A DNA stretch of 64,000 nt from Massilia atriviolacea (lineage in GTDB: Bacteria; Pseudomonadota; Gammaproteobacteria; Burkholderiales; Burkholderiaceae_D): NCBI RefSeq assembly GCF_003953935.1, contig NZ_RXLQ01000003.1, positions 434,001-498,000 on the forward strand. Direction: 5' to 3'. Shown here piece after piece: positions 4,073 to 16,865 of this stretch. The notes under the pieces are model-generated. The model was given only the letters and a program-made list of their open reading frames with translations. It was not told the origin of the DNA and made no database searches. Numbering within the stretch: position 1 is the stretch's first letter; each line of letters begins with the position of its first letter. Both the position numbers and the translations under genes were made by a program.

Positions 4073-4783
4073 TTACTTGCCGAGCAGGGCGAGCGACGCA
4101 TTCCACTGTCCCAGCCACGGATAGAGGAAATCGTGCGCCTGGAACGCGCGTTTCAGCTGCGAAATCGGCACCCGGTACACATCGTTCATTCCCAGCGCGA
4201 GCGTCACCGGATTCCACATGGCCTGCTTTTTCGATTTGCGCGCGCTGCCCTTGATGCGCGCGCCTTCATCGCCGAAGATCCCGCCGGCGTCGTCGAGCGC
4301 GCGGCTCATGTCGATCCGCAGCATGGCGCTGAAGGCCGCCATCGCCTCATCCTTGCTGATGCCGACCCGCGCTTCAAGCGCCGATTCGACGATCGCCGGC
4401 TTCGGTTCCGCATCGCGTTTGAGTTTGACGACCAGCCGTTCCAGCTCCTTTTTGAGAAAGCGCAGCTCGTGCAGCGCGCGCCGGAAACCCGGCGCCGGCA
4501 GCTGCGCCACGATTCTATAGACGTCCTTGGTGACCGTGATCAGCACATCCTCGCTGCCGGCCGCCAGGCGCGCGGTGTCGGCTTCCAGGAAGATCGGCGC
4601 CGCATAGCCGCCGTTGGCGTCGCCGAACAGGTCGGCGTGATTGGCGTCGTAATCGAGCCAGACGTAAGGCGTGAGTCCGTTTTCCAGCAGCCTGGCCAGG
4701 GTCCACGGCGTGCCGGTTTGCTGTTCCAGCCAGGCGCAGGATTGTTCGGTGGTCGCCCGAAACGGGAGTTCGATGATCGTCAT
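4073..4783 (-). CDS. Hypothetical protein
   Basis: 236 aa from the ATG at 4783 (MTIIELPFRATTEQS). An in-frame extension to 4870 gives only low-complexity Ala and is not used. The N-terminal part contains LEQQTGTPWTLARLLENGLTP followed by WLDYD, a pattern I associate with Burkholderiales proteins of unknown function; the middle is a basic helical region (FLKKELERLVVKLKRD) and the end is aromatic. No signal peptide. The start faces the divergent MBL-fold gene at 4906, so the 122-bp gap must hold both promoters. Confidence 0.6.
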   Translation of the reverse strand: MTIIELPFRATTEQSCAWLEQQTGTPWTLARLLENGLTPYVWLDYDANHADLFGDANGGYAAPIFLEADTARLAAGSEDVLITVTKDVYRIVAQLPAPGFRRALHELRFLKKELERLVVKLKRDAEPKPAIVESALEARVGISKDEAMAAFSAMLRIDMSRALDDAGGIFGDEGARIKGSARKSKKQAMWNPVTLALGMNDVYRVPISQLKRAFQAHDFLYPWLGQWNASLALLGK

Positions 4784-4905
4784 TGTTTGTCCGCTTGCAG
4801 AAAGTGAGTCGCCGGAGGTCGGCCAATACCGCCATGATAGGCGATCCGCCGCCGCAGCAGCAGCCGGCATGTCGGGATGGCATGGCGCGTGAGATAATGG
4901 CCGCC

Positions 4906-6252
4906 ATGACGCTTACCATCTCCAGGATTCTCCACGCCGGCTACGTGTTCGAATGCGCGGGTGCGCGCATCGCTTTCGATCCCGTGGTCGAAAATCCGTT
5001 CAGCCGCAATTGCCACGCCTTTCCCGACGTCCGTTTCGATCATGCGCAGTTGCGCGACGTGCGTTTCGACGCCGTCTTCATTTCGCACTTCCACGACGAC
5101 CACTGCTCGTTCGACAGCCTGGACCTGCTGGACCGCGCCACGCCGATGTATATCTACTGCCTGTTCGACGAATTGTTCGACATGGTGCGCGAACTGGGCT
5201 TCGTTCACGTTTACCCGCTGCGCATCGACACGCCGGTGCAGGTCGGCGCGATGACCGTGACCCCGCGCGAAGCGATGGATGCGGACGTGGATTCGATGTT
5301 CCACATCCAGGCCGGCGGGCTCAATGTGCTCAATGTCGTCGATTCGTGGATCGATCCGCACATGCTGCCGGCATTGGCGCGCTTTGCGCCGTGGGACATG
5401 GTGCTGTGGCCATTCCAGACCATGCGCGAAATCGAGGTGCTGTCGCCATCGCGCGCCGCACCCGCGCCGCCGCGCCTGCCGGAAGAATGGATCGACCAGC
5501 TGACGGCGCTCAAGCCGCGCTATGTGGTGCCCAGTTCCTGCCAGTTCGTGCAGGAGCCGTGGTCCTGGTATAACCACGCGTTTTTCCCGATCGCCTACCG
5601 CCAGTTCGAGGAGGAAGTGGGCGCGGCCTTGCCGGATGCCCGGATCGTGCGCATGAATCCCTCGGTCTCGTTCGTACTCGATCGCGATGGGCTTACCGCT
5701 GCGCCGCCGTTGGCGTGGGTGGTGCCGGTGGGCGAGCAGGATGTCGATTACCGCTACCAAGGCCATGCGGCGCCGCCGCGCACGGCCGACATTGCGCGCC
5801 ATTTCGCGCCGCTGACGGCGGCCCAGCAAACGCGCGTGATGGATTACTGCGCATCGGGCCTGCTGGACAAATATCGCGGCATGGAACTGCCGGAAGAGAG
5901 TTTTTTCGAGAAGCCGCGCGTGTGGCGTTTATCGGTCTTCGATCATGCGGGAGAGGGCACGCATTTTCATTACCGGATCGAGGGCGACGCTATCGAGCCG
6001 ATTGACGGCGCGCCGGATGCCTTGTCGTGGACGACCGAAGTACCAGGCGCCAGGCTGTATGCGGCGCTGGAACTGGGCGAGGCGCTGACGTCGATGTACA
6101 TGCGCATGAACGATGCGGTATTCGATGCGCAGACCGAGGCCGATCTGCGCGATGCGGAACTGGTGGACGACCCCTTGATCCGCTGCCTGTTCAACGACGT
6201 TTTCGGGGCGTATCAGGCGGCCCAGCTGCGGCGCATCAAGCAAGGCAGCTGA
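4906..6252 (+). CDS. MBL-fold metallo-hydrolase
   Basis: 448 aa from ATG 4906; ATG 4897 three codons upstream is equally possible and no clear ribosome site decides. The metallo-beta-lactamase metal motif is HFHDDH at residues 61-66. DPVVENPFSR early on and the extended C-terminal half (about 270-448, with FEKPRVWRLSVFDHAG) set it apart from short hydrolases; this C-terminal half is not a domain I recognise. Cytoplasmic, as there is no signal. The substrate cannot be inferred. It ends directly against the convergent FHA gene (stop codons adjacent at 6252/6253). Confidence 0.75.
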   Translation: MTLTISRILHAGYVFECAGARIAFDPVVENPFSRNCHAFPDVRFDHAQLRDVRFDAVFISHFHDDHCSFDSLDLLDRATPMYIYCLFDELFDMVRELGFVHVYPLRIDTPVQVGAMTVTPREAMDADVDSMFHIQAGGLNVLNVVDSWIDPHMLPALARFAPWDMVLWPFQTMREIEVLSPSRAAPAPPRLPEEWIDQLTALKPRYVVPSSCQFVQEPWSWYNHAFFPIAYRQFEEEVGAALPDARIVRMNPSVSFVLDRDGLTAAPPLAWVVPVGEQDVDYRYQGHAAPPRTADIARHFAPLTAAQQTRVMDYCASGLLDKYRGMELPEESFFEKPRVWRLSVFDHAGEGTHFHYRIEGDAIEPIDGAPDALSWTTEVPGARLYAALELGEALTSMYMRMNDAVFDAQTEADLRDAELVDDPLIRCLFNDVFGAYQAAQLRRIKQGS

Positions 6253-7776
6253 CTACGCGGTGTACATCTCCACCGCCGCATGCGTCGATTTCAGCGCCGT
6301 GCGCACGATCCAGCATTCCGGATACGACTCGCTGGCAAAGCGCGTATGGCGCGGGAACTGCGCCAGCCGGTCGAGCGCCGCGCCGGGACTGAGCGCGGTT
6401 TCCTTGCCGGTGGCCGGGTCCAGATGCCAGAAACCGCCATTCTGGTGATACAGGACCGGCATCACGGCCGCCCTCGGGGCCGCGCCGAACGGCGCCAGCG
6501 GGAAACCCGGATGCTTGCCCGGCTCTAAAAAGTAAAAACACTCGGCATGCGCGCCCTGGTCGATTCGGTGCACGATCACCCCGTGCGGCATCACCGCCGT
6601 GACATTGAGCACCACGATCCCCTTGATGCTGGCCGACAGCTCGATGCGCATCCCCAGCCGCAGCGGCACCGGCTTGTTCTTGCCCGGCCAGACGCCGTCG
6701 AGCAGGATCCCGTAGCGCGACACATCTTCGATCTCGAAGCCGTTCATGCCGCGCCGGATCACCGCGTGGCGCCCCGACAGGCGGCGCGTGAGGCCGTCGC
6801 GGTCCTGTCCGTCTTCGCCAAAGTGGGTCAGCAGCACGTCCGCCTCGGGGTCGTACAGTTCGAAACGGCCCAGCACGCATTCCGGCATGGCGAACAGGCG
6901 CACCTGGCGCTGCGAACCGGCCTCGGGCGCCGCGTTGACCAGGCAGGCGCAGGCGGTCGGGTGCGGATGCGGCTCGGCCTGCGAGGGCACGTCGATCTCG
7001 ATCAGGTCTTCGTCCCAGGCGATGGTCGAAAAGCCCATGTCGACCTTGCCCGGCTTGGCGTCCAGGTTCAGGTTGGCGATCGACGCATTGCGCGCATGCA
7101 CGTCGATGTCGAGCCGGCCGCCGCCGGCCTGGGCGTCGACCCGGGCGATGGAAGCGTCGTCGGCCATCACGCGCACGTTCTTGTGGGTCGACAGGAAAGT
7201 CTGGTGGATTTCGGTCAGGGTGGCGTCCGGACGCGGCACCAGGATGACCAGCGTGCAGACCCATTTGTGGCGAATCCGCCCGTCTTGCTGGTTGAACAGC
7301 TCGACTTCGATGCGGTATTGCCCGTGTTCCTTGTCGCGCGAGGAAAATTCGATGAACAGCGGCCGCCAGTCGCCGCGCAGGGTGCGCACGAAGGAGTGGC
7401 GCGCATTGCCCTGCGCGATCAGCGCCGATTGCAGTTGCATCGTCACCAGCGGCGCACTGTCGGGCGGCATGCCGCGCAGCTCGACCTTGATGGCCTGGCG
7501 TCCGCCGGCGGCGCGCGGGTCGAAGCCGCTGACGTGCAGGTGAGGGCGTTGGAGCAGCGGCGGCGCCTCGTCCGGATAGCTGAACGGGGCCGCCTCGGGT
7601 TTGGCGCTCGGGCGCGCGCTGCGCAGGGCGGTGATCAGCTCATAACTGGAATTGGCCGGTGCCACGGCCGCCGGCGCCGGAATGGCAGCCTGGGCATGAC
7701 CGTTCGCGCATGCAGTTTCCCCTGGCATGACCCAGAAGGTGCAATGCGGATGCAAGGGATTGTTGCATTTTTTCAT
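6253..7776 (-). CDS. FHA domain protein with N-terminal zinc-ribbon-like motif
   Basis: 507 aa. The N-terminus carries Cys4, Cys12, Cys23 and several His (CNNPLHPHC ... ACANGH), a probable metal-binding knuckle as seen in kinase-associated ribbon proteins. A beta-rich segment (about 75-185) has no name I can give. The FHA domain lies at about 291-390 with the conserved GR (303-304), SGRH (334-337) and DVSRYGILLDG, so phosphothreonine binding is likely. It follows the PP2C phosphatase gene by 117 bp on the same strand, and the kinase/SEDS operon lies 3 kb upstream. Likely role: reader or scaffold for Ser/Thr phosphorylation; partner unknown. Confidence 0.8.
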   Translation of the reverse strand: MKKCNNPLHPHCTFWVMPGETACANGHAQAAIPAPAAVAPANSSYELITALRSARPSAKPEAAPFSYPDEAPPLLQRPHLHVSGFDPRAAGGRQAIKVELRGMPPDSAPLVTMQLQSALIAQGNARHSFVRTLRGDWRPLFIEFSSRDKEHGQYRIEVELFNQQDGRIRHKWVCTLVILVPRPDATLTEIHQTFLSTHKNVRVMADDASIARVDAQAGGGRLDIDVHARNASIANLNLDAKPGKVDMGFSTIAWDEDLIEIDVPSQAEPHPHPTACACLVNAAPEAGSQRQVRLFAMPECVLGRFELYDPEADVLLTHFGEDGQDRDGLTRRLSGRHAVIRRGMNGFEIEDVSRYGILLDGVWPGKNKPVPLRLGMRIELSASIKGIVVLNVTAVMPHGVIVHRIDQGAHAECFYFLEPGKHPGFPLAPFGAAPRAAVMPVLYHQNGGFWHLDPATGKETALSPGAALDRLAQFPRHTRFASESYPECWIVRTALKSTHAAVEMYTA

Positions 7777-7893: not shown

Positions 7894-8877
7894 TCAAGGT
7901 GCTCCGCGACAAAGTTGTTCGCTCGCTATCGGCGCCGCCGTGTCATCGTTCATCAGCGGGCGCAGCACGATGGCGGTCAGGTTGTCGATATGCAGCTCGG
8001 GCGGCGGATTGCTTGTCATTTCGGCAAACAGGGCCTCGGTCATGGCGCGCGCGCTGTGCTGCGCCTTGAACAAGCCCGGCCAGCGCGCCAGCCAGGCGCA
8101 GGGATCGGCGCAGGCCCAGAAGCCGTCGCTGGCCAGCAGGTACACCGCGCGCGGATCGAGTTCCAGCGCGCGCCGGTCGGGCAGGTGGTACAGATACGAG
8201 GGCAGGTTGCGCGGCGACAGTTCGTACAGCCCATCGGCCAGTTCGGCCGGATTGGCGAAGGCATTGCCGAGGATGAACGCTTGCGAAATCTGGCAGCGAT
8301 GCTCGCCGTGCACCTGCTGCCACCACTCGTGTTCGCCCAGCAGGCCGCACATCGCAAATGCCGTCGCCGGAACATGGTCGATGGTCATCGGCGTGACTTG
8401 CATATCGATAATTTCGTACAGGCGCGAATCGCCCACGTGGTACAGCAGGGCGGGCTTGCCGGGGCGCAGTTCGAGCATGGTCAGGGTGGTGCCGGGGCGC
8501 TTGCCGGAAGCCGGGTCGACGCCGAAATGCGCCTGCAGCTGGGCGTGCAGCAGGTCGAGCCGCGCCGACAGTTCGCCCAGCGAATGGCAGGCCGGCATCG
8601 CCAGCAGGCCGCCGACGACCGCTTCGGCCGCTTCGCGCCCGCGCCCATGTCCGCCCATGCCGTCGAGCACCGCCACGCGCAGGTGGCCGGCCGGCCAGTC
8701 CGCCACCTGCTGGCGCTGCCCGGCTTGTTCGTGCAGGAATGCGGCACTGCCGCTGCTGTCGATGACGAGGTAATTATCCTGGTTCTCCAGGCGTGGCGGC
8801 GCACCGGCGCCGGCGCTGGACTGCACCGACACGTCGAGATAGGGGCCGCAATCGAGGCTGGGAGTGACAGTTGTCAT
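7894..8877 (-). CDS. PP2C-family Ser/Thr protein phosphatase
   Basis: 327 aa from ATG 8877. The PPM/PP2C metal and phosphate motifs are all present: ENQDNY (31-36), VLDGMGGHG with D72, PGTTLTML, HVGDSRLY, LLASDGFWA and DNLTAIVLR near the C-terminus. It should dephosphorylate Ser/Thr residues in the cytoplasm with Mn/Mg. An insert of about 60 residues between VGDSRLY and LLASDG is longer than in minimal family members. Neighbours are an FHA protein downstream and an MFS exporter upstream; the only kinase in the window that could oppose it is at 15076-16044. No clear Shine-Dalgarno sequence. Confidence 0.9.
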   Translation of the reverse strand: MTTVTPSLDCGPYLDVSVQSSAGAGAPPRLENQDNYLVIDSSGSAAFLHEQAGQRQQVADWPAGHLRVAVLDGMGGHGRGREAAEAVVGGLLAMPACHSLGELSARLDLLHAQLQAHFGVDPASGKRPGTTLTMLELRPGKPALLYHVGDSRLYEIIDMQVTPMTIDHVPATAFAMCGLLGEHEWWQQVHGEHRCQISQAFILGNAFANPAELADGLYELSPRNLPSYLYHLPDRRALELDPRAVYLLASDGFWACADPCAWLARWPGLFKAQHSARAMTEALFAEMTSNPPPELHIDNLTAIVLRPLMNDDTAAPIASEQLCRGAP

Positions 8878-8943: not shown

Positions 8944-10197
8944 TCAGATGGAGGTTTCCCGCTTTCCTGTCGCGAGTGCGATGGCGTTGACGATGACGCA
9001 GGCGCCGGCGGCGGCCAGCGCGGCCTGCACGCCGACCTTGTCGGCCAGCGCGCCCCAGACCATGCTGCCGAGCGTGTAGCCGCCGGCCATGACGAACAGG
9101 TAGATCGACAGGGTGCGTGCGCGTATGCTTGGCGGAAAAGCCAGCTGCGCCGCCGCGTTCAGGGTCGACACCGTGGCCGACCACGCCATCCCGGCCACGA
9201 CAATGAGCGGCACCAGCACCATCAGCGAGCGGATCATGGGCAGCAGGCACAGCATGGCGCCGTAGACCAGCAGCGAGGCACTGAGCAGGCGCGTCTTACC
9301 GATGCGGCAACGCAGCGAGGGCAGCACGAAGGCGCCGCACACCGCACCCGCGCCCAGGCTGCCCATCAGGATGCCGAACACGCTCGAATCCATGTGCAGC
9401 ACTTGCTTGACGAACACCGGCAGCAAGGCCGCAAAGGCAATCGTCGAGAAAAACACGGTGCAGACGTTGAGCAGGATGTGCCGGTAGCGCCCGCAGCCGA
9501 GCGCGGTCGACACGCCGAGTTTCAGGCTGCTGGCAAAATCGATCCTGCCGCGCGGTTCGGGCACGCCGTCGCGCCACCACGACCAGTACACCGTCAGCAA
9601 ACCGACGAAAGAGAGTGCATTGACCAGGAACAGCGCGCCGGCGCCGACCCAGTTGAACAGCAAGCCGCCCAGTGCCGGCCCGAGGATGGCCGCCACGTTG
9701 TAGCTCAGGTTGTTCAGGGTGGCCGCCGCTTCCACCTCGTCCGGCTCGACCAGGCCGGACATCGACGCTTGCCATGCCGGCCACATGAAGGCGGCGCCGG
9801 TGCCCATGCAGAAGGTCAATGCCAGCACGGGCCCCGCCGAAATCCGCCCGCTGATCGCCAGCGCCGCCATGACGCAGGCGCACAGGGCCATGAACAGATT
9901 ACAGAAGAACAAAAACTTGGGCCGGTCGACGGCGTCGGCAATCACGCCGGCAAACAGGGCAAACAGGAAGATGGGAATGTAACTGGCGGTCTGCACCAGG
10001 CTGGCCGTGGACGCCGAGCTGGCCACCAGCGTAATCAGCCAGGCCGAGGCGAACGTCTGGGTCCAGGTGCCGAGGTTCGATATCAGGTTGGCGGTCCACA
10101 GCTGCCGGAAGCGCGCGTGGCGCAGCGGCTTCGACAAGGGCACCTTTGCGCGCAGCGACGGCGCCGGCAAGGGGACGGACAGGCTCGGTTTGGACAT
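8944..10197 (-). CDS. MFS transporter (EntS-like/MFS_3)
   Basis: 417 aa with about 12 hydrophobic segments. The start RFRQLWTANLISNLGTW and the motif FAGVIADAVDRPK after the second segment are typical of the MFS_3/transmembrane secretion effector branch that contains the enterobactin exporter EntS and several drug and siderophore exporters. Predicted inner-membrane, proton-driven efflux pump; the substrate cannot be told. It precedes the phosphatase gene by 66 bp on the same strand but has no obvious functional link to it. The divergent GNAT gene starts 115 bp away. Confidence 0.85.
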   Translation of the reverse strand: MSKPSLSVPLPAPSLRAKVPLSKPLRHARFRQLWTANLISNLGTWTQTFASAWLITLVASSASTASLVQTASYIPIFLFALFAGVIADAVDRPKFLFFCNLFMALCACVMAALAISGRISAGPVLALTFCMGTGAAFMWPAWQASMSGLVEPDEVEAAATLNNLSYNVAAILGPALGGLLFNWVGAGALFLVNALSFVGLLTVYWSWWRDGVPEPRGRIDFASSLKLGVSTALGCGRYRHILLNVCTVFFSTIAFAALLPVFVKQVLHMDSSVFGILMGSLGAGAVCGAFVLPSLRCRIGKTRLLSASLLVYGAMLCLLPMIRSLMVLVPLIVVAGMAWSATVSTLNAAAQLAFPPSIRARTLSIYLFVMAGGYTLGSMVWGALADKVGVQAALAAAGACVIVNAIALATGKRETSI

Positions 10198-10311: not shown

Positions 10312-10767
10312 ATGCGTATCCGTCCTATCGAGCACAGCGATGTCCCGGCCGTGGCCGCTTTATTCCGCGCGCTGGCCACCGAATTCATTGTCCACGAATC
10401 GCCGCCGGAAGCGGCCGCCACCTTCCTGCGCGACAATGACGAGGCAGGTTTCCAGGGTTTTCTGCGCCTGGGACATGCCTATCACGTCGCCGAGATCGAC
10501 GGCGAACTGGCCGGCTTCATCGCCATTCGCGAGCGCCAGCACCTGTATCACATGTTCGTCGCCAAGCGCTTCCACCGGCGCGGCGTCGCCCGCGCCCTGT
10601 GGGACGTGGCGCGGCGCGCGGCGATCGTGGCCGGCGGCGACGGCAGCTTTACCGTCAACGCCTCCAACTACGCGCTGCCGGTCTACCAAGCCATGGGCTT
10701 CGAGCGCAGCGCGCCGATGCAGTGCGTCAATGGCTTGTATTTCAACCCGATGCAGCGGCCGGCCTGA
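10312..10767 (+). CDS. GNAT family N-acetyltransferase
   Basis: 151 aa from ATG 10312. The acetyl-CoA binding segment is HMFVAKRFHRRGVARALW (motif A, with the R-x-x-G-x-A core), followed by NASNYALPVYQAMGFE (motif B), which are diagnostic for GNAT acetyltransferases. The start MRIRPIEHSDVPAVAALF is the usual first beta-alpha unit. Substrate unknown. Its stop is seven bases from the convergent SH3 gene. Confidence 0.85.
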   Translation: MRIRPIEHSDVPAVAALFRALATEFIVHESPPEAAATFLRDNDEAGFQGFLRLGHAYHVAEIDGELAGFIAIRERQHLYHMFVAKRFHRRGVARALWDVARRAAIVAGGDGSFTVNASNYALPVYQAMGFERSAPMQCVNGLYFNPMQRPA

Positions 10768-10774
10768 CGCTGCG

Positions 10775-11212
10775 TCAACGCCGTGCTTCCTCCGCGCGCC
10801 GCAGCCACAGGCTGCTCGACCAGCCGCGCACGTCCCTGCCGTCGATGCGCGCGCTGACCTGCCACCAGTCGCCGTCGCGCAGGCCGGTCGTGGTGACCAC
10901 CGTGCCTGCCGGCGCCACCGCGATGCGCGGCGCGCCGATGCCTTTGCCAGCGCGCAGGTTCAGGTCGTCGAAGACGGTGTAGCTCACGCCCGCCAGCAGC
11001 GGCTGCGCCGTCGCGGCCATGACCGGCTGCGCCGCCGGCAGCAGCGACAGCAGCAGGGCGCCCAGGCCCCAGGTCCCGGCGGCCAGGATGCTGGCCGCGC
11101 GCAGGTTCGGGCGGCGCCACCAGCGCGCGGGCGTGAGCCACGCCGCCAGCACCAGCGTGGCGATCAGGCCGGCCGCATAGGCGAGCACGGTCAGGTAGGT
11201 GGCGCTTGGCAT
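10775..11212 (-). CDS. Membrane protein with bacterial SH3 domain
   Basis: 145 aa. ATG 11212 is preceded by AAGGAG. Two membrane segments (about 5-25 and 40-60) are followed by an SH3b-like domain at about 76-138 (DLNLRAGKGI ... GDWWQVSARIDGRDVRGWSSSLWL). SH3b domains often bind peptidoglycan or peptides, and by topology the domain is likely periplasmic. It is the last gene of the kinase/SEDS/FHA-like operon, 10 bp after the FHA-like gene, so a cell-wall-sensing or wall-anchoring role in that system is a reasonable inference. Confidence 0.75.
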   Translation of the reverse strand: MPSATYLTVLAYAAGLIATLVLAAWLTPARWWRRPNLRAASILAAGTWGLGALLLSLLPAAQPVMAATAQPLLAGVSYTVFDDLNLRAGKGIGAPRIAVAPAGTVVTTTGLRDGDWWQVSARIDGRDVRGWSSSLWLRRAEEARR

Positions 11213-11222
11213 GGCTGTCTCC

Positions 11223-12728
11223 TTATGCGTCGAAACGCAGCACATAGTGGCCCGCCACCAGATGGTGACCGGCGGGCAGCAGGTAGGGCTGGTCGGCGCT
11301 GGCCTCGCCGATGCTGGCGACAAAGGCGAGCTTCTCGTCGAGGTGATACAGGGCCTGGGTGGCGGACAGGCGGCCGATCAGGTAGCCGCCCGGTCCCGCT
11401 TCGAAGCTGAAGGCGCTGCGCGACAGGCCGATGCGGTCGGCGCTGGCGCTGTCGGCACCGCCGGCAAGGCGCAGGAAGCGCGGCGAATCGAGCACGCGCA
11501 GCGCGGCCAGCATCGGCGCGCTGCGTCCGAAGGCGAAGCGCGCACCGCCGGCCACCGGCTCGGCGACCGGGTGCGGCAGGCGCAGGATGGCGCAATAGCG
11601 TTCGGCCATGGCGGGAGCGACCGCCAGCAGGTCCACCGCGCGCGCGTCGGCCGGGGTGAAGGTGGCGGGTGCGGCGATCGGCTGGCGGCCGGCGCCGCTG
11701 AGCGCGTACAGCTGGTCGTCCGCATCGACGCCGACACCGAGCACCGCCGCTTCGCCTTCGCTTGCCAGCATCAGCGACGGGGCCAGGCCGATTTCCATCG
11801 ACACGGCGCCGGTATCGCGGTAGCGCGACAGGCAGGGCAGCGCCAGGCCGACCAGGCTGACCCGCTGTTGCGCCAGCGGGGCGTAGGTGGCGTCGCTGGG
11901 GGCCGGACGATGACTGAACGGCACGGCGGTGTCGCCGCTGTCGATGCCGGGGGTGGCGCGCGGCTTCCAGACGGCGGCCGGTTTTGCCGCCGGGGCGGGG
12001 ATCGGAGCCGAACCGCTGCGCCGTACACGCATCAGGAGGCGCGCCGCCGGGTCGCCCTTGGCGCTGGCGACGTAATGGCCGGTCAGCGCGTCGAGCGCGC
12101 AGTCGAATGCGCCCTTGGGCCGCACCTGTACCTCGATCGGGGCGTCGGGGCCATCGTTCACCAGCAAGATCGCGCCCGCCCCGCCGAACGGCCAGGCCGG
12201 CACCGCGTGACTGGCGCTGTCGGCGTCGTGGCCGATCAGCGCCAGGCGCTGCTGCGGGTAGATCGGGCATACCGCCTGCCAGACCACGCTGTCGCGCGAG
12301 GTCTCCACTGTATACAAGGGCTGTTCGCCGGCGGCCGGGAGGTAGACCGCGTGGCCGAACTTGACTTCGACCTGGCCCGGTTCCAGCGCATCGGTGCCGA
12401 CCACGTCGTAGCGCACGTCGTCGCTGCCGAGCAGGTCGCCGAAGTCCTTCTGGTGCAGGGCCGTGAGCGACTGCGCCAGGTCGCGCACGCGGGCGCCGCG
12501 CGTCAGGTGGCGGTCGTCGTCGAGTTCGTCCTGCGCCAGCATGAGGGTAATGTGGGAGAAGCAGCGCGTCGGCGCGCGTCCGCGATGCTCGCGCGGGGAG
12601 CGCTCCAGCAGGTCGCGCAGCAGGGGGCGGCGCGAGAACAGGGCCAGGCCGGGCGCCTGCCACAGCGTTTCGGCGTTGAACACATCGTTCACCTTGCCCA
12701 GGACTTCATGTTGGACGTAGACCGGCAT
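11223..12728 (-). CDS. FHA-like domain protein of the SEDS/kinase operon
   Basis: 501 aa; ATG 12728 has a strong GAGGAG site. The first 240 residues (MPVYVQHEVLGKVNDVF onward) match nothing I recognise; they are acidic and beta-rich with no signal or membrane segment. The C-terminal 110 residues (FGRSAPMLAALRVL, then SADRIGLSRSAFSFE and GGYLIGRLSATQALYHLD) follow the strand order and the GR/S..x/loop pattern of an FHA domain, although the Ser-x-x-His core is altered to SRSAF. The start overlaps the end of the SEDS gene by 40 bp. Predicted cytoplasmic phosphopeptide-binding adaptor; the domain call is by pattern and needs a profile search. Confidence 0.65.
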   Translation of the reverse strand: MPVYVQHEVLGKVNDVFNAETLWQAPGLALFSRRPLLRDLLERSPREHRGRAPTRCFSHITLMLAQDELDDDRHLTRGARVRDLAQSLTALHQKDFGDLLGSDDVRYDVVGTDALEPGQVEVKFGHAVYLPAAGEQPLYTVETSRDSVVWQAVCPIYPQQRLALIGHDADSASHAVPAWPFGGAGAILLVNDGPDAPIEVQVRPKGAFDCALDALTGHYVASAKGDPAARLLMRVRRSGSAPIPAPAAKPAAVWKPRATPGIDSGDTAVPFSHRPAPSDATYAPLAQQRVSLVGLALPCLSRYRDTGAVSMEIGLAPSLMLASEGEAAVLGVGVDADDQLYALSGAGRQPIAAPATFTPADARAVDLLAVAPAMAERYCAILRLPHPVAEPVAGGARFAFGRSAPMLAALRVLDSPRFLRLAGGADSASADRIGLSRSAFSFEAGPGGYLIGRLSATQALYHLDEKLAFVASIGEASADQPYLLPAGHHLVAGHYVLRFDA

Positions 12729-15079
12729 GGTTGATTCTCCTCGAATGATTGCGCACTGATTGCACTGAACGCTAGCAGGGGGCAGATGAAAAACAGCAGG
12801 TGGCTGCCGCCGGCCGACAGAAAACTCATGGGCTGGCCCATGATCGGGAAGATCGCCAGGTTGGTCCCCCACGACAGCAGAAAATGACCCAGCACGAAAG
12901 CCGCGCCGCCGCACAGGGCGAAGCAGCGGAAGCGCCACAGCCAGGCCTGGCGGAAGTCGCGCGTGCGCTCGCTGGCCCCGAAACAGCGCGCCGCCGTCTG
13001 CAGCAGCCCGACCAGGAACAGCGCCTGCAGCGCCCACAGGGCCAGGGCGCCCAGCAAGCCGTGGCGGTTCAGGAAGAAGGAGGGCGCAAAATCGTCCTGC
13101 ACCGCCGGAATATGCAGCGCGCTGCCGCCCGGCTGGCCCATGGCGCCCAGGCCCAGCCGGCTGTCGGCACCCCACCACGCGCCTTCGGCGATGGCGCGCG
13201 CGGCCAGCAGCAACTGCTGGCCGGTATGCGGGTGCCGGGCCGGATCGAGCCACACCATGAAGCGGTCGGCATAAAAGCCCCACTGCGCCACTTCGGCCAC
13301 GCCCGCGCTGCGCAGCCAGGCGATGCTGCCGGCGGCCACGCAGGCCGCGCCGAACAGGGCGGCGGTGGCGGCGTGCTTGCGGGTGGCCAGCGACCAGGCC
13401 AGGGCCATCGCCATGCACCACACCAGCAACAGGATCAGGGGCGAATAATCGTCCACCTGGACCAGGGCCAGCCCGAGCAGCGCGGCAAACAGCAGCACCG
13501 GCGCGGCCAGGCGCAGCCAGCGCCGCGCGGGACTCGAATGCTCCGGCATGTGCGCATGCCAGCCAAGCCCGATGGCCAGGCAATGCGCGCTCAGGGCGGT
13601 CAGGGCCAGCTTGGCAAATTCGACCGGCTGCAGGTCGAACACGCCGGTCTCGTCGCCGAAGACGACCTGCATCAGCAACGCGGCCAGCGCCGCCAGCGCG
13701 AACAGCGCGAGCACCCATTCGAGGCGATTTTGCGGCATGGCCGGCGCCGTGGCGCGCATCCGCAGGCGCAGGTGCGCACCGGCGCCAAGGCCGATCGCCA
13801 GCAAGGCCACCGATTTCTGGAAGTGGCGCAGCGCGGCCGATTCGGCGCCGCCGAAGCCCAGTTCGAGCTGCGCCAGCAGGCCCACCGCCAGCAGCAGCAC
13901 GCCGGCGGCGGTGGCAAGGGTCAGGCGCGCCGGCACCAGCAGGCAGCCCCACAGCGCGGCCCAGGCCAGCAGCATCGACCAGCCCACGCCCGGCGCGCTG
14001 CCGGAGCGCTGGAACAGCAGCGCGGCCACGCCGGCGACGCCCAAGAGCGCACTGGCGCCGGCCGCCAGCCGGATCGCACGCCCGGTATCGCGCATAAATG
14101 GCCAGGCTCCGCGCTGCCAGTTCACCCCCGCCGCCACCGCCAGCAGGAGGCACAGGCCCAGCGCCACCGTCCACGGGCGCCCGGACGGCAGCGTCCAGAT
14201 GCCGCGCTTGCGCCACTGCCACGCCACTTGCGGCGGCAGCAGCGCGTCGGCTTCGGCATACAGCGCCACATGGCGCTGCGGCAGCAGGTGCAGCACGGCG
14301 CCGTCGATCCGCACGCCCATGCGGGTGCGGCCGGCCACCAGCGTCTGCACGCCATCGAGCGCTTCGGCGCTGCGCGCCAGGTCGGCCTGTCCTTCGGGCG
14401 TCGAGATCATCAGCGGCGCGCGTTCGGCCGCGCCGGACAGCAGCAGGCCGTCGCGTGCGCGCGCGATGCTGGCGCTGGCGCCTTCCACATAAGCGATGCC
14501 GAGCCGGTTGCCGCAGTACAGATTGCCGCCGAAGCTGAGCGGACGCGCCACCGTCAGCGCCTGCGGCATGGCGCGGTTCCACAGCGCGATGGCGCGCGCG
14601 GCGAGGCCGGCGTCCGGGCAGGCCGCCTGCGCGCCGCCGTTGCGGTACAGGGTGGCGCCGTCGTAGCGCCATTCGGCGCTTGGGCCGGAAAAGGCAAGCC
14701 GGCGCGGGTCGGCCTCGCTCACGACAAAGCGCGCCGCGCCGATACGCAAGCTCTGGCCGGCGCGCAGCGCGGTCGACCCCATGCGGCGATCCACGCCATC
14801 GCGCTGGAGCAGCACTTGCTTGCCGGCGCTGACGTTGCTGGCCCACCAGCTGCCGTCGGCGGCGCGGCGCAGGCCCAGGTGGGCGTGGTCGGCCTGGGGC
14901 GCGGCCAGTTCGGCGCCGCCCACGGTGAGCGCTTCCCCGGGCCGCAGCGTCACCGAAATCCGCTCGGGCGACCAGGCCGGCGGCGCGCGCCACAGGCAGA
15001 CCAGCTGCAGCAGGCACAGGACCGCGAGCAGGGCGGCGGTCAGGAGAAAACCGGGAGAACGGCCGGCAAGGCGCATCAT
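12689..15079 (-). CDS. SEDS (RodA/FtsW-type) membrane protein with N-terminal FHA-like domain
   Basis: 796 aa, about twice a normal RodA/FtsW. One membrane segment (10-30) is followed by an FHA-like beta domain (about 40-122), a mixed region to 300, then roughly ten or more membrane segments. SEDS signatures are clear: DLQPVEFAKLAL (482-493), HIPAVQDDFAPSFF (656-669) where D662/D663 sits at the place of the catalytic Asp of RodA/FtsW, and IFPIMGQPMSFLSAGGS (743-759), matching the G-l-P-x-x-G-x-P-x-P-F-x-S-x-G-G-S signature. It should polymerise lipid II-type glycan strands or be a derived homologue. The start overlaps the kinase stop (ATGA). No class B PBP is next to it. Confidence 0.8.
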   Translation of the reverse strand: MMRLAGRSPGFLLTAALLAVLCLLQLVCLWRAPPAWSPERISVTLRPGEALTVGGAELAAPQADHAHLGLRRAADGSWWASNVSAGKQVLLQRDGVDRRMGSTALRAGQSLRIGAARFVVSEADPRRLAFSGPSAEWRYDGATLYRNGGAQAACPDAGLAARAIALWNRAMPQALTVARPLSFGGNLYCGNRLGIAYVEGASASIARARDGLLLSGAAERAPLMISTPEGQADLARSAEALDGVQTLVAGRTRMGVRIDGAVLHLLPQRHVALYAEADALLPPQVAWQWRKRGIWTLPSGRPWTVALGLCLLLAVAAGVNWQRGAWPFMRDTGRAIRLAAGASALLGVAGVAALLFQRSGSAPGVGWSMLLAWAALWGCLLVPARLTLATAAGVLLLAVGLLAQLELGFGGAESAALRHFQKSVALLAIGLGAGAHLRLRMRATAPAMPQNRLEWVLALFALAALAALLMQVVFGDETGVFDLQPVEFAKLALTALSAHCLAIGLGWHAHMPEHSSPARRWLRLAAPVLLFAALLGLALVQVDDYSPLILLLVWCMAMALAWSLATRKHAATAALFGAACVAAGSIAWLRSAGVAEVAQWGFYADRFMVWLDPARHPHTGQQLLLAARAIAEGAWWGADSRLGLGAMGQPGGSALHIPAVQDDFAPSFFLNRHGLLGALALWALQALFLVGLLQTAARCFGASERTRDFRQAWLWRFRCFALCGGAAFVLGHFLLSWGTNLAIFPIMGQPMSFLSAGGSHLLFFICPLLAFSAISAQSFEENQPCRSTSNMKSWAR

Positions 15080-16044
15080 GGCTGCGCGCCCGGCGCCAGG
15101 ACGGCGCGGATGGCGCCGATCATGCGGCTGACCTGCATGGCGTGGGATGGGCGTTGCGCGCGCTCGGCCTGGAGCAGGGTGCGCAGCAGGTGCAGCGCCT
15201 CGGATGCGCCGCCGTCGCCCTGGCGGCCGAAGGCGCGCGCGAAATGCGCCGCTTCATCGTCGTGCAGGGTCGGAGGAAGGCGGTTGCCGTGGCGTGCCAG
15301 CAGCATGGCCGCGCCTTCGCCGCGGTGTTCGCGGTACGCCTGGCCGCAGTCGCTGCAAAAGCGCAGCGGCAGGCCTCCCGTGACGAGGTAGTAGAACAGC
15401 GCCCCCAGGGCGAAGTAGTCGGTGCGGGTGTCGGTATGGTAGCTGCCGTCGGCATCCGGGAAAAACTGTTCCGGCCCCTGCCAGCTGGCCGTGCCGGCGT
15501 AGGTGCCGGCCCGGCCGTCGGCCAGCAGGCGGCTGGTGCCGAAGTCCGCCAGCTTGACGCTGCCGTGCCGGCGCGACAGCAGCACGTTGGCCGGCTTCAG
15601 GTCCAGGTAGGACCATCCGTACTGGTGCACCTTGGCCAGCGCCTGGTTGATCTGCGCCAGCCAGTCGAGCAGCTGCGCGTTGCTTATCGGCCGGCCGGCA
15701 TCGCGTTCGATGGCGATATGCCGCCCAAGGTCGGTGTCGAGCAGTTCGAGCGCCATGACCGGCAGGCCATCGTGTTCGCCGCTGTCGAGCAGGCGCACGA
15801 GGTGACGCTCGTCCCATGGCGCGAGCGACCGCAGGAAGGCGATTTCCTTGCGGGCGCTGGCGATCCAGCGTTCCTGCTGCAAGGGATGGGCGCGCGCCAT
15901 CTGGTCGCGGTTGACCAGCTTGAGCGCCACTTCGCCGCGCGGGCCCATCGCCCTCCACACGACGCCGTAGGCGGAGCCGCCCAACTGGCCGCACAGGCGG
16001 TACTGGCCCGCGCCGAGTGCGATGATCGCTTCCGCTGTTTCCAT
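15076..16044 (-). CDS. Serine/threonine protein kinase (Hanks type)
   Basis: 322 aa from ATG 16044 (GGGGGGACAGC upstream). Kinase motifs are complete: glycine loop LGGSAYGV (21-28), Lys42 in VALKLV, Glu67 in RKEIAFL, catalytic YLDLKPAN with D148, K150 and N153 (YLD instead of HRD), DFG at 167-169, WQGPEQFF in the activation region, and D..TDYFALGALFYYLVTG. No membrane anchor or PASTA repeats, so it is cytoplasmic. First gene of the operon kinase, SEDS, FHA-like, SH3. Likely phosphorylates FHA partners or the SEDS protein; the PP2C phosphatase at 7894-8877 is the natural opponent. Confidence 0.9.
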   Translation of the reverse strand: METAEAIIALGAGQYRLCGQLGGSAYGVVWRAMGPRGEVALKLVNRDQMARAHPLQQERWIASARKEIAFLRSLAPWDERHLVRLLDSGEHDGLPVMALELLDTDLGRHIAIERDAGRPISNAQLLDWLAQINQALAKVHQYGWSYLDLKPANVLLSRRHGSVKLADFGTSRLLADGRAGTYAGTASWQGPEQFFPDADGSYHTDTRTDYFALGALFYYLVTGGLPLRFCSDCGQAYREHRGEGAAMLLARHGNRLPPTLHDDEAAHFARAFGRQGDGGASEALHLLRTLLQAERAQRPSHAMQVSRMIGAIRAVLAPGAQP

Positions 16045-16174: not shown

Positions 16175-16651
16175 TTAACGGCCGTATCCGTGGCCGTATC
16201 CATGACCGCGACCGCGTCCATGGCCGTAGCCGTGGTGATGGTGGCGGCGGCCACGCTCGACATACACGACCGCCGGTGGGCCGTAGTAGCGCGGAGGCGG
16301 CGCGTAATACACCGGGGCCGGCTGGTAGTAGCTGCGCGATTCGACATACACGCGTGCCGGCTCGCGGTACGGACGCTCGTAGCGGCGCTCGTCGTAGCGG
16401 GTCTCGTAGCGCGTATCGTAACGGTTGTCGTAGTAGCCACGGTTGCTGTCGCGGGTGCTGACCGAATTGCCGACCACCGCACCGAGCACGCCGCCGACCA
16501 GGGCGCCGTTGCGCGATCCGGTACTGTGCCCGATGGCTGCACCGGCCACTGCGCCGATCGCCGTATTGACGCCACGGTCGCTAGCCATTGCGGTGGAGGA
16601 GAGGGCCGCTGCGGCCAGCATCACCGCACCAACAAATTTTGTATTCAACAT
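16175..16651 (-). CDS. Glycine-zipper envelope protein with Tyr/Arg/His-rich tail
   Basis: 158 aa from ATG 16651 with AAAGGAAA upstream. A signal peptide (MLNTKFVGAVMLAAAALSSTAMA) is followed by a glycine-zipper 2TM segment (NTAIGAVAGAAIGHSTG and ALVGGVLGAVVGNS), then by a long Tyr/Arg/Pro-rich stretch and a His/Gly tail (HHHHGYGHGRGRGHGYG). Such proteins are small periplasmic or outer-membrane proteins of the YMGG/SlyB-like group; the His-rich end could bind metal. It is a single-gene unit with its own terminator. Confidence 0.75.
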   Translation of the reverse strand: MLNTKFVGAVMLAAAALSSTAMASDRGVNTAIGAVAGAAIGHSTGSRNGALVGGVLGAVVGNSVSTRDSNRGYYDNRYDTRYETRYDERRYERPYREPARVYVESRSYYQPAPVYYAPPPRYYGPPAVVYVERGRRHHHHGYGHGRGRGHGYGHGYGR

Positions 16652-16865
16652 AGCGTTTCCTTTGGCCTCAACCGAGATCGGGATGATCACGCAAGCGCTG
16701 GGGCATGACTCCACTATAGTCCCGCTTCATGCGAACACCATTCTTAATACATAATCTTACAAATCCGGGCATCGTGTAACAAGGCCGGCCAGCGATCTTT
16801 CCCCTTGCGTATGCCGCCCGCCGCCCCATCTGATACCGGTTACCCTCCCGATTCCGGACTTGCCC

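Follow-up and report, generated by a model that had tools for sequence, protein, structure and literature searches.

Background

Most work on the control of cell wall synthesis by Ser/Thr phosphorylation has concerned Actinobacteria and Firmicutes. The locus described here lies in and beside a 64,000-nucleotide stretch of Massilia atriviolacea (contig NZ_RXLQ01000003.1, positions 434,001 to 498,000; this whole stretch is referred to as the window, and features are numbered from its first letter). It has the same parts list as the mycobacterial fhaA-fhaB-pstP-rodA-pbpA-pknA-pknB locus, as laid out in the accessible part of PMC11898655: one or more Ser/Thr kinases, a PP2C phosphatase, two FHA proteins, a SEDS protein and a class B penicillin-binding protein (bPBP). 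It seems probable that the Massilia locus encodes a third, dedicated peptidoglycan synthase, consisting of a SEDS polymerase and a giant class B-type transpeptidase, under the local control of kinase, PP2C and FHA proteins.

As in the actinobacterial pknAB-type wall locus, these genes are clustered, but in Massilia they form two convergent operons and the kinase has no PASTA domain. Moreover, the Massilia SEDS protein is fused to an FHA-like domain, predicted to be extracytoplasmic, and to further helices, the PBP is a giant, and the locus adds an SPFH protein, a kinase-FGE fusion, an SH3 protein and four further proteins, the whole set existing in addition to the RodA and FtsW encoded elsewhere in the genome. 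The likeness to the actinobacterial locus, put forward in a preliminary description of the window, is stronger than was claimed, since the gene set takes in a PP2C and a second FHA protein as well as a class B-type PBP. It does not extend to the PASTA kinase or the operon arrangement, and no sequence-level link was found with the FhaA_N profile. Because both the PASTA kinase and an FhaA_N match are lacking, the locus is best regarded, on this comparison of parts, as a functional analogue and not a member of the actinobacterial pknAB-type locus.

Accessory SEDS-bPBP pairs are used for special tasks, e.g. SpoVE-SpoVD of spore formers (accessible parts of PMC10693644 and PMC12713402). The Massilia pair would resemble SpoVE-SpoVD in being reserved for a special task, but its set does not consist of sporulation genes and sits in a kinase/phosphatase/FHA locus. 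With RodA-PBP2 and FtsW-FtsI (8tj3, 8bh1) it shares the SEDS core fold, the catalytic Asp and the pairing of polymerase and transpeptidase, whereas the Massilia SEDS sequence is very divergent, carries ~380 extra N-terminal residues and has its own regulatory genes. No paper on this locus was found in the open literature, as judged by titles and abstract openings.

The six-gene operon

Four adjacent genes on the minus strand of the window begin with KIN (15076..16044, 322 aa), a Hanks-type Ser/Thr kinase (PF00069, E 1.8e-31). They continue with the SEDS-fusion protein (12689..15079, 796 aa; PF01098, E 4.3e-22, 79 bits against a cut-off of 26.4), the 501-aa protein P501 (11223..12728), a predicted FhaA-like reader, and an SH3_3 domain protein (10775..11212; PF08239, E 1.7e-8) with two likely transmembrane helices by eye. 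The preliminary description had given these genes overlaps of 4 and 40 bp followed by a 10-bp gap, which is exact, and its naming of a Hanks kinase, a SEDS-like protein and a membrane SH3 protein agrees with the profile matches. It had also seen a four-gene operon; the adjacency is real but the operon is longer, adding, further on along the same strand, a PP2C-like phosphatase (7894..8877) and a 507-aa Pfam FHA protein (6253..7776, FHA domain 310-380), both of which are operon members in relatives.

When the window genes were compared by tblastn (E<=1e-5) with 79 related loci, mostly from Massilia, Duganella, Rugamonas, Pseudoduganella and other Oxalobacteraceae, where some gene absences are contig ends, KIN was matched in 74 loci (73 of them real, the match in L107 being a 30%, minus-strand one), P501 in 78, SH3 in 76, and PP2C and the FHA gene in 72 each. 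All six genes occur together in 66/79 loci, and no violation of the gene order was seen among the 79. The kinase-to-SEDS spacing runs from a 20-bp overlap up to 300 bp in 72/73 loci, while the distance from SH3 to PP2C is within 200 bp in 40 of the 66 six-gene loci and only -4 to 89 nt in L041-L049. The six-gene presence, the unbroken order and the short SH3-PP2C gaps in relatives imply that the full operon is KIN-SEDS-P501-SH3-PP2C-FHA and that in the window it is broken by an insertion between SH3 and PP2C. The inserted genes, both assigned by eye and outside the system, encode a GNAT-like acetyltransferase (10312..10767, plus strand; found in 32/79 loci and absent, for example, from L041-L049) and an MFS-like transporter (8944..10197, minus strand; 21/79). 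The preliminary description had allowed beforehand that its four genes might not be kept together in relatives; they are, with neighbours that recur in the 79 loci beyond what chance would give.

The signalling proteins retain their motifs. In KIN, K42, D148 and DFG167-169 are present in 73/73 aligned sequences; no transmembrane helix was seen by eye, and Pfam gave kinase profiles alone, with no PASTA match. The PP2C matches NF033484 (E 9.7e-10) and PF13672 (E 0.0024), each below the respective cut-off, and in the alignment has the motifs NQD, DGMGGH, [ST]DG and DN in 72/72 sequences and GDSR in 71/72. The 507-aa FHA protein scores 26.7 bits with PF00498 (cut-off 20.7), and its G303, R304, S334 and H337 occur in 71/71 aligned sequences. 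All these residues presumably have the roles usual for kinase, PP2C and FHA motifs.

The SEDS-fusion protein and P501

The SEDS protein matches PF01098 above cut-off, shows the SEDS fold in its predicted structure, with 14 long helices in the model, and carries an Asp in the fourth outer loop, which we take to be catalytic in SEDS proteins. This residue, Asp663 (codon 13091..13093, minus strand), lines up with the catalytic Asp of RodA (D262 in E. coli, D255 in T. thermophilus) in an alignment with the genome's own RodA and FtsW, the own RodA having been aligned with PDB chains; the substitution D255A is named in the title of PDB entry 6bas. Asp663 is present in 74/74 SEDS sequences, in which the Asp, Glu and Lys residues of the active region are also invariant. 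Residues 36-291 (14207..14974, minus strand) form an extra beta-domain, predicted to have an FHA-like fold and to lie outside the cytoplasm, in which Cys154 and Cys189 are invariant. Since RodA and FtsW are encoded by genes of their own in this genome, RodA adjoining another PBP, the SEDS set of the window is a third one; three SEDS matches were found in 4/184 class genomes, that of Massilia atriviolacea included. As a separate observation, a Paracoccaceae metagenome-assembled genome (L112:21-3568) encodes a SEDS-like C-terminal fragment and, after it, a DUF4407-like membrane protein of 868 aa.

FhaA has a C-terminal FHA domain, which a long linker separates from a globular domain at the N-terminus, according to the accessible part of PMC11898655. 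P501 is predicted to resemble it, with an N-terminal alpha/beta domain, a beta domain, a low-confidence linker at ~240-285 and a C-terminal FHA fold at residues 286-501 (11226..11873, minus strand; model pLDDT 77, pTM 0.48). The structure prediction for which the preliminary description had called therefore yields a modelled FHA fold, and the proposed FHA likeness stands at the level of fold; it does not stand at the level of profiles, as the Pfam FHA profile matches 0/60 homologues. P501 itself has no Pfam family match and none with FhaA_N (PF12401), and in its Foldseek list 2lc0, the N-terminus of Rv0020c, comes at rank 28 (E 0.089, prob 0.84) amid unrelated alpha/beta folds of similar score; a likeness to it had been predicted ahead of the comparison. 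G401-R402 and S436-R437 are conserved, R402 in 76/76 and S436 in 75/76 aligned sequences; we take these two to be the Arg and Ser of a putative phospho-Thr site.

The giant PBP and the partner operon

According to the preliminary description the PBP was missing, which holds for the window only: the genome encodes a giant class B-type PBP on the same contig, ~15 kb before the window start (G000:C23:416195-419263). The route to it led from the P501 profile to a far relative in another family (G330), from there to a divergent 1054-aa transpeptidase-domain protein, and back to the homologue in the own genome, whose match (C23:416330-419227) has 41% identity to the G330 PBP over query residues 62-1044. 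PF00905 is its sole Pfam match at E<=0.1, and the transpeptidase domain has SxxK (S734/K737), SxN (S819/N821) and KTG (K997-G999), invariant in 7/7 aligned sequences, and no GT51 domain accompanies it, as in class B.

The PBP gene is followed by genes for four further proteins, an SPFH (Band_7) protein with an N-terminal zinc ribbon and a kinase with a C-terminal FGE-sulfatase domain (the last two at L135:8324-12888, i.e. G000:C23:423323-427887); no PASTA domain was matched by Pfam in the kinase-FGE protein. In relatives this partner operon faces the first operon, and its last gene is ~290 bp from the FHA gene in G079 vs ~12.4 kb in Massilia atriviolacea.

Co-occurrence of SEDS and PBP

In the family sample of 195 genomes (PBP called at E<=1e-60, SEDS at E<=1e-40), P501 was found in 38, PBP in 35 and SEDS in 35, with SEDS and PBP together in 34, although these 34 genomes are related and do not represent independent events. 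The only discordant genomes, G091 and G108, are fragmented assemblies (610 and 520 contigs), and neither SEDS nor PBP occurs without P501 in the sample. PBP and P501 share a contig in 30 of the 35 PBP genomes, always convergent (30/30) and 12.0-30.5 kb apart, and lie on different contigs in the other five.

Two genomes hint at how the parts can be separated. In G182 (L158, L148, L159; completeness 100) the kinase frame is followed after 80 bp by P501, with no SEDS between, the second operon lacks the PBP at its other end, and no copy of either enzyme gene was found elsewhere in the genome, while eleven other locus genes are retained. That both are absent with the other genes kept implies that SEDS and PBP go together. 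G001 has a kinase-P501-SH3 trio (L120:8386-11737), and SEDS, PBP, PP2C and FHA were not found in the stretches examined around it. Since these two genomes keep signalling genes without the two enzymes, the signalling set can exist without the synthase.

G330, in contrast, is an outlier with the enzymes. In its locus (L119) the genes for the kinase, the SEDS, P501 and an SLT-LysM lytic transglycosylase all run the same way, and the PBP is divergent from the kinase-SEDS-P501 operon (the listed frames overlap by 6 bp). Close by are a PP2C, a caspase-FGE protein and an AAA ATPase. Genes around the locus (L119 and L154) encode several proteins of the caspase (Peptidase_C14)-FGE-sulfatase type, together with a DUF4384-like protein and an AAA ATPase. 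Profile searches, which covered Pseudomonadota genomes, found P501 in 2/398 genomes of the phylum, 7/399 of the order and 1/43 of G330's family, and the PBP (E<=1e-30) in 1/369 class genomes, namely the own one. As far as these samples go, the locus resides in one Oxalobacteraceae group, with a sporadic outlier.

Proposed function and alternatives

The proposed synthase would work as follows. The SEDS glycan polymerase of the window would pair, presumably in direct contact, with the giant class B-type transpeptidase encoded outside it, and the two would make peptidoglycan. The Hanks kinase and PP2C, co-operonic with SEDS, would set the phosphorylation state of local partners, and P501 and the 507-aa protein, both of them FHA proteins of the cytoplasm, would read the partners once phosphorylated and gate the synthase or set its position, a step modelled on the proposal for mycobacterial FhaA. 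The SH3 protein and the FHA-like ectodomain of SEDS would be turned towards the wall, which they may sense or bind. The SPFH protein may be a scaffold and the kinase-FGE protein a second input. Gene content and its conservation, the layout in two operons, the modelled folds, the retained catalytic residues and the joint presence and absence of SEDS and PBP are observed; peptidoglycan synthesis, contact between the two enzymes, the phosphorylated targets and the timing of use are inferred from them.

An unlikely alternative is that the SEDS-like protein acts on a different glycan, be it a capsule, an O-antigen-like polymer or an exopolysaccharide, which the giant transpeptidase-like protein anchors or modifies, in a phospho-controlled polysaccharide system. 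It is distinctly unlikely that the locus is primarily a signalling or conflict system (defence or programmed death), with kinases, SPFH, FGE and the caspases of G330 as its core and the synthase as effector or guarded target. The caspase-FGE proteins adjoining the G330 locus, its sporadic presence in that family (1/43), the signalling genes persisting without the synthase in G182 and G001, a kinase whose nearest PADLOC entries are the kinases of mad6 and PD-T4-6, and the weak match of the PP2C in PADLOC (E 2.7e-4) would all fit such a system. However, the kinase matches are generic, SEDS, P501, SH3 and FHA have no PADLOC match, and the Oxalobacteraceae locus adjoins the same M28 peptidase and glycine-zipper genes (68/79 each), which is closer to a resident cell function than to a mobile defence island. 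RodA, penicillin and Massilia do not occur in the main text of the eLife 2020 conflict-system survey (PMC7159879), in the part accessible.

That neither SEDS nor PBP is catalytically active, both being relics or scaffolds, and that kinase/FHA signalling alone matters, is very improbable. It could be argued from G182 and G001, where signalling genes outlive both enzymes, but the active-site residues are invariant across 74 SEDS and 7 PBP sequences, and five of the seven SEDS or PBP matches flagged for stops have the stop at their natural C-terminus (at residue 779 or later of 796, or at 1014 of 1017). The flagged SEDS of G056 shows no stop in tblastn, and the remaining flagged match is a piece of G120 at a contig edge; for the SEDS of G155 and G171 the alignment covered the C-terminal half only.

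Returning to the proposed dedicated peptidoglycan synthase, the chances seem even that a complete third synthase for the wall, switched by phosphorylation, came together in a Gram-negative lineage, either independently or through an old transfer. It would comprise an FhaA-like reader, a kinase, a phosphatase, a SEDS whose own domain senses the wall side and a giant transpeptidase dedicated to it, and would serve a still nameless wall-building task beyond elongation and division. A third synthase would pose the question of which wall these bacteria build with it. With a compact version in free-living betaproteobacteria that does not seem to be a housekeeping one, the phospho-gating of a SEDS-bPBP pair would become approachable by deletions expected to be non-lethal, and G182, with regulators but without both enzymes, offers a ready natural comparison.

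Neighbouring genes and other observations

Directly upstream of KIN lies the gene for a glycine-zipper protein (16175..16714, minus strand; PF13441), a conserved neighbour that is probably not part of the system. In L111 (Massilia sp. H-1, CP087969.1) the locus genes seem split into short frames with odd spacing, which decay or sequencing errors could explain. A beta-lactamase-fold protein (4783-6252, plus strand; PF13483) stands between the locus halves here and occurs in 4/79 related loci. Further away, at 1050-2969 on the plus strand, lies the gene for a secreted protein that resembles glycoside hydrolases (by eye of family 16) and has a C-terminal domain behind a long linker of Thr-Pro repeats.
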